64,000 bases of DNA from Urechis unicinctus (lineage: Eukaryota; Annelida; Polychaeta; Xenopneusta; Urechidae), in NCBI GenBank assembly GCA_034190875.2, contig CM067348.1, positions 11,700,935-11,764,934 of the forward strand, read 5' to 3'. Below the pieces are notes generated by a model, which was not told where the DNA came from, ran no database searches, and saw nothing but the letters and a program-made list of their open reading frames with translations. Below are positions 90 through 60,739 of the stretch, in pieces. Position 1 is the first letter of the stretch, and the number at the start of each line of letters is the position of its first letter. The position numbers and the translations under genes are program-made.

Positions 90-3000
90 CTAGGTGCGAT
101 ACTGAACGCCCGGTAGAACACACAGCATCTCAAAGAGCAGGTTGGCCGCAACCAGAGAGCTATTACCGCTAGGGTCGTATGGTGGAGCCACCTACACACA
201 CATCAAGGGGTCTGACATGGCAACACAAACACATCAGGGGGTCTGACATGGCATCACAAACACACCAGGGTTCTGACATAGCAACACAAACACATCAGGG
301 GGTCTGACATGGCAACATCAAACACATCAGGGGGTCTGACATGGCAACACAAACACACCAGGGGTCTGACATAGCAATGCAAACACATCAGGGGGTCTGA
401 CATGGCAACACACAGACTTCAGCTGCGAAATGTAAGCCAAGTTTACGGATAGGAAACAAAAGAAATCCTATATGATAACAATACATGTCACAACCAGCAG
501 ATGACTGGATCAAGTGTCTCCAGCCTCTCGTCCTGCTGAAATCCACCTGCACCAGTCACTGACACCCACTTATCCATCAGCAGGAGGATACAGCGCGGCT
601 ATTCTACCCCCGGACCCACATGCGGCGGGATGGGAAGGTATCGTAGAGCAAGAAGGCAGAAGTTAAACGCTACACAACCCACCATGATAATAGATAAATG
701 TGACCTTAAGCTCACCATAACAACAGAAGGAAAAGGACCATAAACCCACAATGATAACAGAATGAAGAGAATCAAACGCTCAACATGATAACTAAATGAA
801 GACGACTAAATACTCAGAATAATGAAGACTAAACGCTCACCAAGATAACAGAATGAAGAAGACTAAACACTCACCATGTAAACAGAATAAAGAACTAAAT
901 GCTCACCATGATAACAGAATGAAGTGGACTAAATGCTCACCATGATAACAGAATAACAAAGTGGACCATAAAGCTCACCATGATAACAGAATGAAGTGGA
1001 CTAAATGCTCACCATGATAACAGAATGAAGTGGAGCATAAAGCTCACCATGATAACAGGGTAGTGAGGTAAATAAAATGAGTATGGTCACATAATCAAAA
1101 CATGCTCACTTCTACGAGATCTCCGCCAACTATATTCAGGCCCTTGCATCCTCGTATAATCTCCAGGGCTTGATGCGTGGTCAGTCCTCCAATCTCAGGG
1201 GTACCTGGATCGTAATCACAAACAGAGGTACCTGGATCGTAATCACAAACAGGCGTACCTGGATCGTAATCACAAACAAACAGAGGTACCTGGATCGTAA
1301 TTACAAACAGGGGTACCTGGATTGTAATCACAAACAGGGGTACCTGGATTGTAATCACAAACAGGGGTACCTGGATCGTAATCACAAACAGAGGTACCTG
1401 GATCGTTATCACAAACAGGGGTACCTGGATCGTAATCGCAAACAGATGTCGTAAACAGTTTGACTTAATTTCACCCTCTCTACCTTAAAGCTTCTGGCTC
1501 GCCGGTTACCCGTAAGTTTTCCTTCGCCCCAATCTAACTACCTCATTAAGGGGCGACCTCATTGGTGATCCGTCTAGAAGCCTCTTAGCCAATATCACTC
1601 ACCGATTGGGGGCAGCCCCGTAAGGTGACAGGATATATAAGGGAGGGAGGACACACTCACGGGAGAGAGAGATCACCAACCATATTTAAATATCATCCTT
1701 TTCGGCTACGTTGATAAAATAAAGAAGTTATCATGTCTTAAGAAGAATAAAATATATTTCATCCTTTTCGGCCCTACAACGTCGTTTGTGTCTTCAATTC
1801 ATCACGTCTTCAAAGTCGACAAAACCAAGCTCGACACAAACATACCAAGTATTTCCCTTCTTTTTCATCAACTCTGTTATGATTTTCAGGACCCCTCCAT
1901 CAAAGAGCCTCCATCCAGAACTAGTTTAGGACATGCCACTGCTGCCAGTTAGCTGCCAGAGTAAACCATGCATCCCCCACACCCCCACACCCCTACCACC
2001 CTCCCCGCACACCCAGAGGTAGGTTGACTCACCTGTACCAGGGGCATAAGCTGGATCCAGTGCATCTATGTCAAAGCTGATATAAACAGGACAATCTCCC
2101 ATCTGCGCGCGCACCTCGGCCATGAGAGGAGTCAGAGATTTGTACCAGCACTGTTCCGCAGGAACAATCCGAAAACCCTGCAGCCAAATATAGTGGTGCT
2201 GAATGGGACTGGCTTGTGATATCTCTGTGCTTAATGGGACGTATGAATTCATCCCATCTGTGACAGACGAAGTCACTGACCTTATCTTGTCCGTACTGGC
2301 GGTCATCCGGACTGTATCCAGAGCCCCGTAGTCCTATTTGCACAACGCGCGTTGTATTCAGGCAGCCCTCGTCGCACGCGCGTCTGAATGATGTTCCGTG
2401 AGCGATGGGTGCTCCGCACATGTGAGGCTCTGTGTCATCGTGGGCATCCACGTGGACCAGTCCCACGGCGCCATATTTCTCCTGCAAGTCGCACGACCTT
2501 CAGGGGTCAGTGGGGTCAGATCAGAAGGGAGGTCAGGTAAGAGGGAAGGCAAGGCCTGTTGGTAGGTCAGGTCAGTTGGTAGGTCAAGGCAGTTGGTAGG
2601 TAAGGTCAGTTGGTAGGTCATGCCAATGTGTAGGTCAGGTCAGTTGGTAGGTCAGGTCAGTGGGTAGGTCAAGGCAGTTGTTAGGTCAGACCAATGTGTA
2701 GGTCAGGTTAGTGGGTAGGTCAGGGCATTGGGTAGGTCTGGGCAGTTGGTAGGTCAGGCCAATGTATAGGTCAGGTCAGTTGGTAGGTCAGGTCAGTGGG
2801 TAGATCAGGGAAGTTGGTAGGTCAGGCTAATGTATAGGTCAGGTAAGTGGGTAGGTCAGGGCAGTTGGTAGGTTAGGAATGTGAATCTGTCTCTTTGAGT
2901 GTGTGAGCGATACGTGAGAAAATGTGACACTTCATAGTTCAAAATGCGTTTGTGCCAGTTGAAATAAGATTGACCTTGACAGCTTGTAGGATCGGATAGG

Positions 3001-57790: not shown

Positions 57791-60739
57791 ATGAAGACGT
57801 TCTTATTGTGCTGTGTCGCTGTCGCTGTGGTGAGTCTGGTTATAATGATAATGATTATGAGGCGGATAATAATGAACATGATATCAACCATGATAATGAC
57901 GATGATGCCGAATGATAATGATGACAATCATGATGACGCAGAATTATAATAATGGCGACGATAATTATAACGATGTCAAGGATGATAATGATGATGACAA
58001 TTATGCTGGTGAAGTGTGAGATGATGATACAAATGATAATGATAATAATGCTGGTTACGACTATGATGACAATAACGATGATGTCTATGATGATGATGAT
58101 GATGCTAAAGACTATAATGATGATGATGATGACGATGTTAACGACTATGATAATGGTGATGATAATGCTAACGACTATAATGATGATGAAGATGCTGACG
58201 ACTATGATGATGATGATGATACAGGTGACAGCCGACTTGGATCTTGATCCCTGGTCGGATCAAGGAGCGTGTAGCCCAGGAACTCGTCCACTAGTCATCG
58301 AAACCAACTTGGAGGTGATTTGGAGTCCTAACTTCCGCGAGGGAGTCTATCCTCCCAATTCTCTGTGCGAATGGATCCTCATCCCTCCAGAGGGTTTGGT
58401 AAGTACCTCATCCTAGCAACCACCAGAATCTGCTAGTAAATCTTCTTAACAAGCATCAGTACCCGCTAGTACCTCTTCCTAACAACCAACTTTATCTGTC
58501 AGTACCTCTTCTTAACAGCCACAATAACCCAAAAGTATCAATAAACATATGTACGCCTCTTAGAGAACAAGGCCGTTCACTGATTCATTGAGTTTGTATT
58601 TTCTCAGGGAGTGAGTCTACAGTTTGGTAGCATGGACATCCAGACGTGCAACAACTGCGAGTGTGACGCAATCGAGGCGTATGACGGTATGGATGACCAG
58701 GGGGATCTCATTGGCGTGCGATGCGGGGGAGCTGCCACGCCCTTAGCCTCGTTTGGAGGACCGATGTTCGTTCGTTTCCGGTCTAACAACAATGAACATG
58801 AACATGCCGGGTGGAACGGACAAATCATCCACCAGCTGACAGCTCCTTCAGGTAAACCACGCCCATTTCCTCTAGGTAAACTGCTCCCTTATCCAATTGT
58901 AGCTCCTCAAGGTAAACCACGCTCTTATCCAATCACAGCTCTTCCATGTAAACCACGCCCTTATCCAATCACAGCTCCTCAAGGTAAACCAAGGTTCTCC
59001 AGGTAAACCATGCCCTTATCCAATCACAGCTCCTCCAGGAAAACCACGCCCAATCATATTTCTACCAGGTAAACAACTCCCATATTGAATCACAGATCCT
59101 CCTGGTTAACCACACCTCATGTCCAATATCTGCTCCTTCAGATAAATCATGCACAGATCCTATCACAGCTCCTCTAGGTAAATAACACCAATGTCTAATC
59201 ACAGCTCCCAGATTTAACCACGCCCAATTGCAACTCCTTAAGATTAAACCACGCCCAATCACTGCTCCTCCAAGTAGACCACGCCCATATATAATCACTG
59301 CTCCTCCACACCCATGTTTAATCACATTTTCTCCAGGTAAATTACACCAATTTCAACTGACAGCTACTTTAAGCTAACCACGCCCACATCTATTCAAAGC
59401 TGAAGAAGAGATGAAGAAGATATTTGAGTAGGAATGGGAATGAAAACGTGATCACAAATGGTAGGCCAGTCACCACGGCTACAATGGAATGTGTATTATC
59501 TGCTTATATCAGAGTGCTTGGGATCCGTGGCCGACTACACGGAGCCGACCGGGTACATCTCATCACCCGGATGGACGCACGGCATGCCCTATCTACCGAA
59601 CTTATTCTGCAGATGGCAGCTGTCTGTACCCGGAGCTTGGGTGAGTTCATAACGCCTGCCTCACATCGGCAGCGGAATATCGTCATCCGCTCAAGATTCC
59701 ACCATAAAGTTTATTCAACGCAATGAGAAAAGACGTTACCATGACATAGTTAGGGCATCTTAGACGTTACTATGACATAATTAGGATATCATAGACATTA
59801 CCATGACAAGATTATGCTATCTTAGACGTTACCATGACATAATTACGATATCTTAGACGTTACCGTGACATAATTAGCATATCTTAGACGTTAGCATAAC
59901 ATGATTATGCTATCTTAGACGTTACCATGACATAATTACGATATCTTAGACGTTACCATGACATTATTAGCATATCTTAGACGTTACCATAACATGATTA
60001 TGCTATCTTAGACGTTACCGTGACATAATTACGATATATTGACGTTACCATGACATAATAAGGATATCTAAGACGTTACCATGACATAATTAGCATATCT
60101 AAGACGTTACCATGACATAATTAGCATATCTAAGACGTTACCATGACATAATTAGCATATCTAAGACGTTACCATGACATAATTAGCATATCTAAGACGT
60201 TACCATGGCCGGATATCATTGACGTTGCTTTCTCTATTAAGAACTTATTAGAAGACCCACACTTACTGTAGTGAGCCACTTTACTAAGACCCATGCTTGA
60301 TTTACCAAGAACCATACTTACTTTAACTCATCCTGATATAACTAAGCTCCGTGTTGACACCACAGGGCTACCAACTGGAGTTCGACCCGGGCTTCACCAC
60401 AGAGAACTGTTGTACCTGCGACTACCTGCAGCTTCATAACGGCACGTTGCTGTCCGACACACGCACGGCTCGCTGGTTCGGAGATGACGAGCCGCATATC
60501 GCTTACTCGCCAGGGGCCAATCTACTCGTCCACTTTCCGACAGACGCTTCCGGTCAGGCAGCTGGCTTCGGCTTCACCTACACTACACGTAAGTCGACCT
60601 GTCAGTTACAAATTCTCATCCGAACTCGCTCAACATGGTCTAACGCTTTACGGGGTTCTCATCAGCCCGGCGCCAGGACGTGTCGGTCTCCCCGTCATTG
60701 TCACCGTGATGTGGTCTTGTTGCAGTGTACGCCCCCTGA
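57791..60739 (+). CDS. Secreted protein with two CUB domains, six exons, complete
   Basis: Exons 57791-57829, 58225-58398, 58608-58851, 59513-59640, 60366-60588, 60726-60739 join in phase to 273 residues. Signal peptide MKTFLLCCVAVAVVTA is split by intron 1. CUB 1 spans roughly residues 28-150 with WSPNFREGVYPPNSLCEWIL, CDAIEAYDG, VRCGG and MFVRFRSNNN; CUB 2 spans roughly 155-268 with CLGSVADYTEPTGYISSPGW, YLPNLFCRW, CDYLQLHNG, TARWFGDD, LLVHFPTDAS and FGFTYTT. The last exon adds only LYAP and a stop. No transmembrane segment or protease domain is present, so it is likely a secreted binding protein. AATAAA follows at 60812. Intron 3 repeats the exon 3 donor; intron 1 is an ATG/GAT-rich low-complexity tract. 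Confidence 0.9.
57835..58222. repeat. GAT/AAT trinucleotide-rich low-complexity intron
   Basis: Almost the whole CUB gene intron 1 is imperfect (GATAAT)n and (GATGAT)n, with CCATGATAATG phrases. The polyM/polyD open frames across it are spurious. Confidence 0.9.
58842..59345. repeat. Splice-donor minisatellite, about 36 bp, CUB exon 3
   Basis: About twelve decaying units of CACAGCTCCTCAAGGTAAAC plus cacgccc. Exon 3 ends CTGACAGCTCCTTCAG|GTAAACCACGCCC, so units copy about 12-14 nt of exon plus the donor. Several units keep AG|GTAAAC. Confidence 0.88.
59735..60212. repeat. Minisatellite, 32 bp x 15, CUB gene intron 4
   Basis: Units of TTAGACGTTACCATGACATA plus attagcatatc. The right half is nearly homogeneous. 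Confidence 0.93.

Follow-up and report, generated by a model that had tools for sequence, protein, structure and literature searches.

Minisatellite arrays spanning exon-intron junctions in a repeat-rich genomic region, compared with intronic array density

The 64,000-bp stretch G000:C7:11700935-11764934, referred to here as the window and taken from an assembly of 1.19 Gb in 926 contigs, was found to carry minisatellite arrays whose tandem units join 9-34 nt of exon to the neighbouring intron, as had been claimed in the original prediction made from the letters of this DNA. Such arrays include 4 of the 36 splice junctions placed by homology, one in an agmatinase-like gene, one in UXS1 and two in DAW1. 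In this sample, junction overlap is not more frequent than the abundant intronic repeats would give. It is probable (roughly 0.78) that these are ordinary, nearly neutral minisatellites of a repeat-rich region, some of which began at junctions or grew over them.

Results

The exons of the three genes were placed via spliced alignment to solved homologues in the PDB. The aligner returned five exons for the agmatinase-like gene (1104..3601, minus strand; 3nio, E=6.1e-106), nine for UXS1 (13628..17744, plus strand; human UXS1, 2b69, E=4e-170) and eight for DAW1 (19834..22820, minus strand; 5nnz, E=1.5e-165). One of the DAW1 exons (21653-21612) sits within a repeat and was removed as spurious, leaving seven, while a short DAW1 exon visible by eye at about 21757-21783 was left out, and one counted DAW1 intron therefore contains it. 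The agmatinase-like exons lie at 3601-3484, 3159-2975, 2481-2281, 2177-2033 and 1204-1104 on the minus strand, and the first intron of this model is of the GC-AG type. The strict count comprises the 36 junctions of 18 introns, since the outer ends of homology are not junctions; a count of 37 adds the acceptor of the first DAW1 exon, and the coverage test uses 36. Tandem Repeats Finder (TRF) gave 131 rows over the window, and those with a unit of at least 10 bp merge to 66 arrays holding 17,085 bases, or 26.7%.

Four of the 36 junctions lie inside TRF arrays. In the agmatinase-like gene, the last exon covered by homology (first base 1204) has its acceptor overlain by a 27 bp x 9.1 array (1196..1445, minus strand), whose unit is composed of 18 nt of intron and 9 nt of exon; the frame is open across the entire array (open reading frame 1095-1484, minus strand), and the two exact matches of the unit in the assembly are both within the window. 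The UXS1 acceptor (first exon base 16276) is overlain by a 52 bp x 6.0 array (15978..16291, plus strand) with 16 nt of exon in the unit. DAW1 carries a 32 bp x 19.0 array over a donor (22047..22651, minus strand; last exon base 22639), in which 13 nt of exon are shared ungapped (roughly 19 nt, judged by eye, when a gap of 3 nt is permitted), and a 50 bp x 2.7 array over an acceptor (20282..20420, minus strand; first exon base 20315) with 34 nt of exon. These four had been predicted as 27 bp x 9, 52 bp x 6, 32 bp x about 18 and 2-3 copies, respectively, and all were recovered at homology-placed exons; the array units are mutually unrelated and one copy remains attached to the exon, also as foreseen. 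The first intron base was inside an array at 1 of 18 donors and 3 of 18 acceptors, with no clear difference between the two. A further array, 38 bp x 5.4, follows another UXS1 donor (14982..15187, plus strand); it starts one base into the intron (exon end 14980) and abuts the donor without crossing it.

Copying of exon edges was also evident from a comparison that uses no repeat calls. At 4 of the 36 junctions, the 16-mer at the exon edge was found again in the neighbouring intron with 13 or more matches, and none of 186 control tests with exon-interior 16-mers reached 13 matches, the best giving 11. The agmatinase-like acceptor, which shares only nine exon bases, scores 11 and is below this threshold. 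Thus, exon-edge sequence is truly copied into the introns. On the coding side, AFNNPYG and TPEIGG are identical in PDB homologues and DGIDV compares with EGVEV in human UXS1; as this side is ancient and conserved, the exon was the source of the copies and the intron the recipient.

An array considered probable at an agmatinase-like donor was found in part. The exon tail before the GC donor (CAG|GCAAGG; 3484..3502, minus strand) recurs in the intron 41 nt downstream, the last 16 nt of the exon being copied with 14/16 matches, so that the duplication stands; there are only two copies and no TRF call, and this is an old two-copy duplication, not an array.

Three further places had been named in the window. 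The exon at the CUB donor is supported by its Pfam match (CUB, E=1.2e-15), and downstream of this donor a degenerate array of about 36 bp (58836..59345, plus strand; last exon base 58851) contains 13 look-alikes of the junction, with GT kept in 10 of them, which confirms the predicted donor array. Owing to this degeneracy, the 36-bp TRF row at this position spans just 3.4 copies. A 29 bp x 9.0 TRF array (53832..54091, minus strand) lies over the putative donor of an exon labelled ependymin; this donor is a good one and follows an open frame. Pfam and PDB searches gave no support for this exon, so that the array at a good donor was retained, whereas the gene name and the exon were not backed. 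At 63.8 kb an array is indeed present and extends into the following 10 kb; no exon was seen beside it, no search aimed at exons having been made there.

The frequency of junction overlap was compared with the density of arrays in the three homology-placed genes, where arrays hold 56.5% of the introns and 2.8% of the exons. Intronic coverage declines monotonically toward the junction, from 22/34 at 100 nt through 18/36 at 60 nt, 14/36 at 40 nt, 10/36 at 20 nt and 5/36 at 6 nt to 4/36 (11%) at 1 nt. Coverage into the exon is 4/36 at 9 nt, 1/36 at 20 nt and 0/35 at 45 nt. Circular shifts of the arrays gave a mean of 14.7 covered junctions versus the 4 observed (P(<=4) ~0.0001). With intrusion into exons limited to 34 nt, 3.86 crossings are expected (P(>=4)=0.55); the expectation is 5.18 for a limit of 50 nt (P(>=4)=0.79) and 1.59 for a limit of 16 nt (P(>=4)=0.069). 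Two explanations had been offered at the outset, and the first of them, a mechanism by which duplications are seeded at splice sites, finds no support in the 4 junctions against 14.7 by random shift or in the drop in coverage toward the junction. The other, tolerance of arrays at junctions, is the best fit, with 4 crossings for the 3.86 predicted under the 34-nt limit.

The reading as ordinary minisatellites has to be weighed against several points that speak the other way. The limit of 34 nt corresponds to the deepest intrusion observed, which makes that null in part a fit to the data; with the limit of 16 nt the result is borderline and leaves room for a mild junction excess; and the strict test is confined to one window, with three genes and 36 junctions. 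By analogy, the boundary repeats of human genes, which in the passages cited often come with alternative transcripts (PMC2812944), would speak for effects on splicing.

The way in which junctions come to be included could be a simple one. If a tandem duplication straddles a junction, the exon would keep an attached copy, and neither its coding sequence nor its splice site would be damaged; splicing would keep to this exon-joined site, and the remaining copies would leave with the intron. The array would thus be near neutral and free to expand and contract, and it would be tolerated across the junction because one copy stays exon-joined. Slippage or unequal exchange is the presumed origin of the copies. 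Arrays reaching deeper into exons would alter the protein and be lost, and selection of this kind may be the cause of the fall in coverage.

A second sample was provided by 10 myosin-head loci elsewhere in the genome (49 kb, 58 matched exons, 116 ends), in which 58 of the 97 myosin matches in the genome fall; the ends are those of profile matches and not exact junctions. Arrays hold 6.6% of the non-exon bases of the myosin loci, and at most 3 of the 116 ends are in an array or within 12 nt of one. One of the three touched ends, in the P-loop exon of locus L067, is a clear donor duplication of 26 bp in about two copies, one in L060 is marginal (10 nt overlap) and one in L065 is of uncertain nature. 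Another exon of L060 begins inside a 43 bp x 13 array, with the acceptor at locus base 2225, which is not among the 116 ends; the exons joined across this acceptor give an unbroken Pfam myosin match (profile 183-278). Therefore, the phenomenon is not restricted to the window, and at the myosin loci too junction overlap does not exceed array density.

These counts bear on whether tandem duplications are seeded at splice sites by some mechanism (R-loops, transcription-linked breaks or an AGGT-like sequence itself). Homology-placed junctions with a duplication or an array number seven in this genome (five in the three genes of the window, the L067 donor and the L060 acceptor), and these, together with the CUB case, would agree with it, as would the occurrence of AG|GT at the junction in five of the eight arrays scored below. 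Seeding should be seen as a peak of coverage at junctions, but intronic coverage is lowest there, and the 3 myosin ends at most that are touched compare with about 7.7 predicted from the array density of 6.6%. Seeding is considered very unlikely.

Eight arrays (agmatinase-like, UXS1, DAW1 donor, DAW1 acceptor, ependymin-labelled, CUB, L067 and L060) were scored for the splice signals of their copies, with weights taken from general knowledge. The AG is kept at acceptor places in 8/8 agmatinase-like, 5/5 UXS1, 3/3 DAW1 and 12/20 L060 copies, and the GT at donor places in 18/18 DAW1, 7/8 ependymin-labelled, 10/13 CUB and 2/3 L067 copies; some of the scored places are off-register matches, chiefly the eight misses in L060, and of the copies in register the majority have undamaged splice dinucleotides. 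Among acceptor copies, a score no more than 0.5 away from that of the real site is reached by 8/8 in agmatinase-like, 5/5 in UXS1 and 11 of the 12 AG-bearing copies in L060; in the DAW1 acceptor array 1/3 comes near the real score, and two of the three look off-register. Donor copies near the real score number 1/18 in DAW1, 0/7 in the ependymin-labelled array, 6/10 in CUB and 2/2 in L067.

Internal copies are weaker in two of the four donor arrays, and equally strong copies occur in three of the four acceptor arrays. These arrays are too few for a conclusion, and the asymmetry between donors and acceptors is only a lead.

That the arrays serve splicing, by providing alternative acceptors and donors or by enhancing it, could be argued from the acceptor copies that match the real site in strength, and from the agmatinase-like array, in which each 27-nt unit would add nine residues to a frame that is open throughout; the ties of human boundary repeats to alternative splicing and novel introns (PMC2812944) would point the same way. 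Yet the unit lengths of the eight arrays leave remainders of 0, 1, 2, 2, 2, 0, 1 and 2 on division by three, with multiples of three in 2/8, and these mixed remainders mean that there is no codon phase. Moreover, the donor copies of DAW1 and of the ependymin-labelled array almost all score below the real site, and in 3/4 arrays the exon part of the copies, instead of being better preserved, shows slightly lower conservation than the intron part. L060 is the opposite, with a more conserved exon part; its intron part contains a TG run of varying length. Judged from the copies themselves, their conservation does not look like function, and a role in splicing is regarded as quite unlikely.

The DAW1 intron at 20316-20435 (minus strand) is only 120 nt long, and the array made up of the start of the next exon and its acceptor covers 88% of it; this intron is a candidate for birth or rebuilding by duplication. 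The arrays in general might be looked upon as remnants of intron birth via tandem duplication of AGGT-bearing exon sequence, and the DAW1 intron, whose unit contains the first 32-34 nt of the next exon and the acceptor, would fit such an origin. There is a precedent in potato, where a tandem duplication across an intron-exon boundary created a new intron (PMC4974935), and duplicated segments bearing splice signals, with AGGT in some cases, are described (PMC3443670, PMC4974935); the same origin is proposed for comparable repeats of amphioxus globin genes (PMC3087553). The other introns, however, far exceed their junction array (in the agmatinase-like gene it makes up 29% of 828 nt), AGGT is absent at 3/8 junctions and, unlike in introns made by duplication, there is no sign that any intron here is new. 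Little credence is given to intron birth as the general source, and ordinary minisatellites, tolerated at the junction, are preferred.

Discussion

The original prediction had pointed to reports of repeats across exon-intron borders in amphioxus, and this is correct; they are named mirages (PMC3087553, PMC3902484). In the passages of these papers cited here, tandem repeats across exon-intron boundaries are described for the globins BflGb6 and BflGb9, with Adh3 as an earlier case, the units being of 10-72 bp and 150-160 bp; regular mRNA splicing is said to be undisturbed, and intron gain is proposed (PMC3087553). PGBD5 and troponin C were added later as mirage genes (PMC3902484). As in the amphioxus cases so described, the units found here consist of an exon edge and the adjoining intron, they occur at donors and acceptors, and splice signals are present in many copies. 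Units span the boundary at the 4 of 36 junctions and at the myosin acceptor of L060, and in the eight scored arrays many but not all copies have splice signals. Length or somatic instability and normal mRNA are reported or cited for the amphioxus mirages, in the passages cited, whereas the present arrays are known from the sequence of one assembly.

The genome itself differs from that of amphioxus. A homeodomain search of the genome revealed 10 Hox-type homeodomains in a run at C16:26.32-26.95 Mb, and their translations include what we take to be a homeodomain of Lox5 type with KLTGP after it, a pair of UbdA-type genes resembling Lox4 and Lox2, and a Post2-like gene. With these gene signatures, the run points to a Hox cluster of lophotrochozoan type, unlike that of the animal in which mirages were described. 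Large contigs (14 with lengths of 49.6-90.8 Mb, about 0.99 Gb together) and matches on C1, C14 and C17 suggest some 17 chromosomes, which would make a gastropod likely. A Pfam GFP model had no match in this genome, but it was silent in control genomes as well and so is uninformative, and a COX1 search directed at the mitochondrial code also gave no match. Ptychodera flava was considered as the source and set aside, the Hox genes not being in agreement with it. As the genome is not that of amphioxus, the precedent covers the class of repeat and not the species.

Minisatellite-sized units at exon-intron boundaries are also found in human genes in segmental duplications, in which units of about 30 bp occur in about four copies on average and are linked to alternative splicing and putative novel introns, with 27 intron modifications (PMC2812944). 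The human cases, according to the cited passages, were chosen for variation among paralogues and for changed gene structure and are supported by transcripts; here the exon is unchanged and the evidence is that of genomic DNA. In the human CBS variant 844ins68, duplication of a splice junction gives two competing sites, and the distal one, joined to the body of the exon, is favoured in the account cited (PMC2630376). The present arrays resemble it in that a duplication lies over a splice junction, and differ from it in that the CBS duplication is human, has just two copies, is polymorphic and has had its splicing measured. Human CBS reportedly has a 31-bp repeat at an exon-intron border as well.

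Similar in unit size and intronic place is the minisatellite in intron 3 of an abalone TSSK1-like gene, with a unit of 27 bp, for which overlap with a splice junction is not mentioned in the passages cited (PMC6905558). Minisatellites linked to splicing in C. elegans were considered as a precedent and set aside, these being intronic with no boundary-spanning unit mentioned in the cited passages (PMC4039745). Junction-spanning repeats of lophotrochozoans were not found among the literature matches listed, in which few subscription journals were covered.

Mirage-type arrays in an apparent lophotrochozoan mean that they are not peculiar to cephalochordates. The class itself is already known; new here are its occurrence in an organism other than amphioxus and a null test that takes the density of intronic arrays into account, by which junction overlap in these genes is as expected of dense intronic arrays excluded from exon interiors. 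Each array is also a natural experiment on the choice of the spliceosome among up to about 19 near-identical sites. It is conceivable, though we hold it to be unlikely, that junction arrays arise as a side effect wherever animal genomes, deuterostome and lophotrochozoan alike, are rich in minisatellites, and that they feed shifts of exon borders and new introns. If so, the spliceosome would face runs of near-identical competing sites, the right one being marked only by its position at the body of the exon, and donor arrays may persist mainly once their internal copies have become weaker than the real site, while acceptor arrays retain equally strong copies.

Other features of the region

The two 10-kb flanks of the window (L003, L004; G000:C7:11690935-11774934) are 56% and 44% minisatellite, and the window and flanks are far richer in such repeats than 64 other loci of this genome (group means 3.1-5.2%, maximum 24%), all of which were chosen around P450, homeobox or myosin matches. 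Two loci inside the window (L001, L002) were omitted from the coverage comparison. Samples of 1.5 kb from C7 at 11.60, 11.85, 11.20 and 12.50 Mb contain 0, 21, 17 and 0% minisatellite, respectively.

Two GC-AG introns were encountered, one near base 1338 of L060 (CAG|GCAAGT) and one at window position 3484 (CAG|GCAAGG). Both are accompanied by junction-copying repeats, a coincidence which may be due to chance.

Exons of P450 genes were tried as a junction sample and rejected, as the 30 loci contain long open frames and are of little use for junctions. Many of these genes (L005-L034) look intronless, having long frames with a nearly whole domain, and 8 of the 30 loci are on C2 within 0.65 Mb (G000:C2:29.29-29.92 Mb).

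Transposon-related sequences are also present in the window. A 741-aa open frame at 27001-29226 (plus strand) has two recognizable domains, the first a transposase of Mutator-like type (Pfam PF20700, E=3.6e-57) and the second resembling an exonuclease (RNase_T, E=5.2e-7); just downstream of this frame a 172 bp x 10.9 array with 97% matches occupies 29491-31373. Pieces of open frame at 34250-35040 (minus strand) were recognized by eye as a putative reverse transcriptase of a long interspersed nuclear element (LINE), and a DDE_Tnp_4 transposase-like fragment lies at 37000-37120 (plus strand), with E=5.9e-5, under the curated cut-off.

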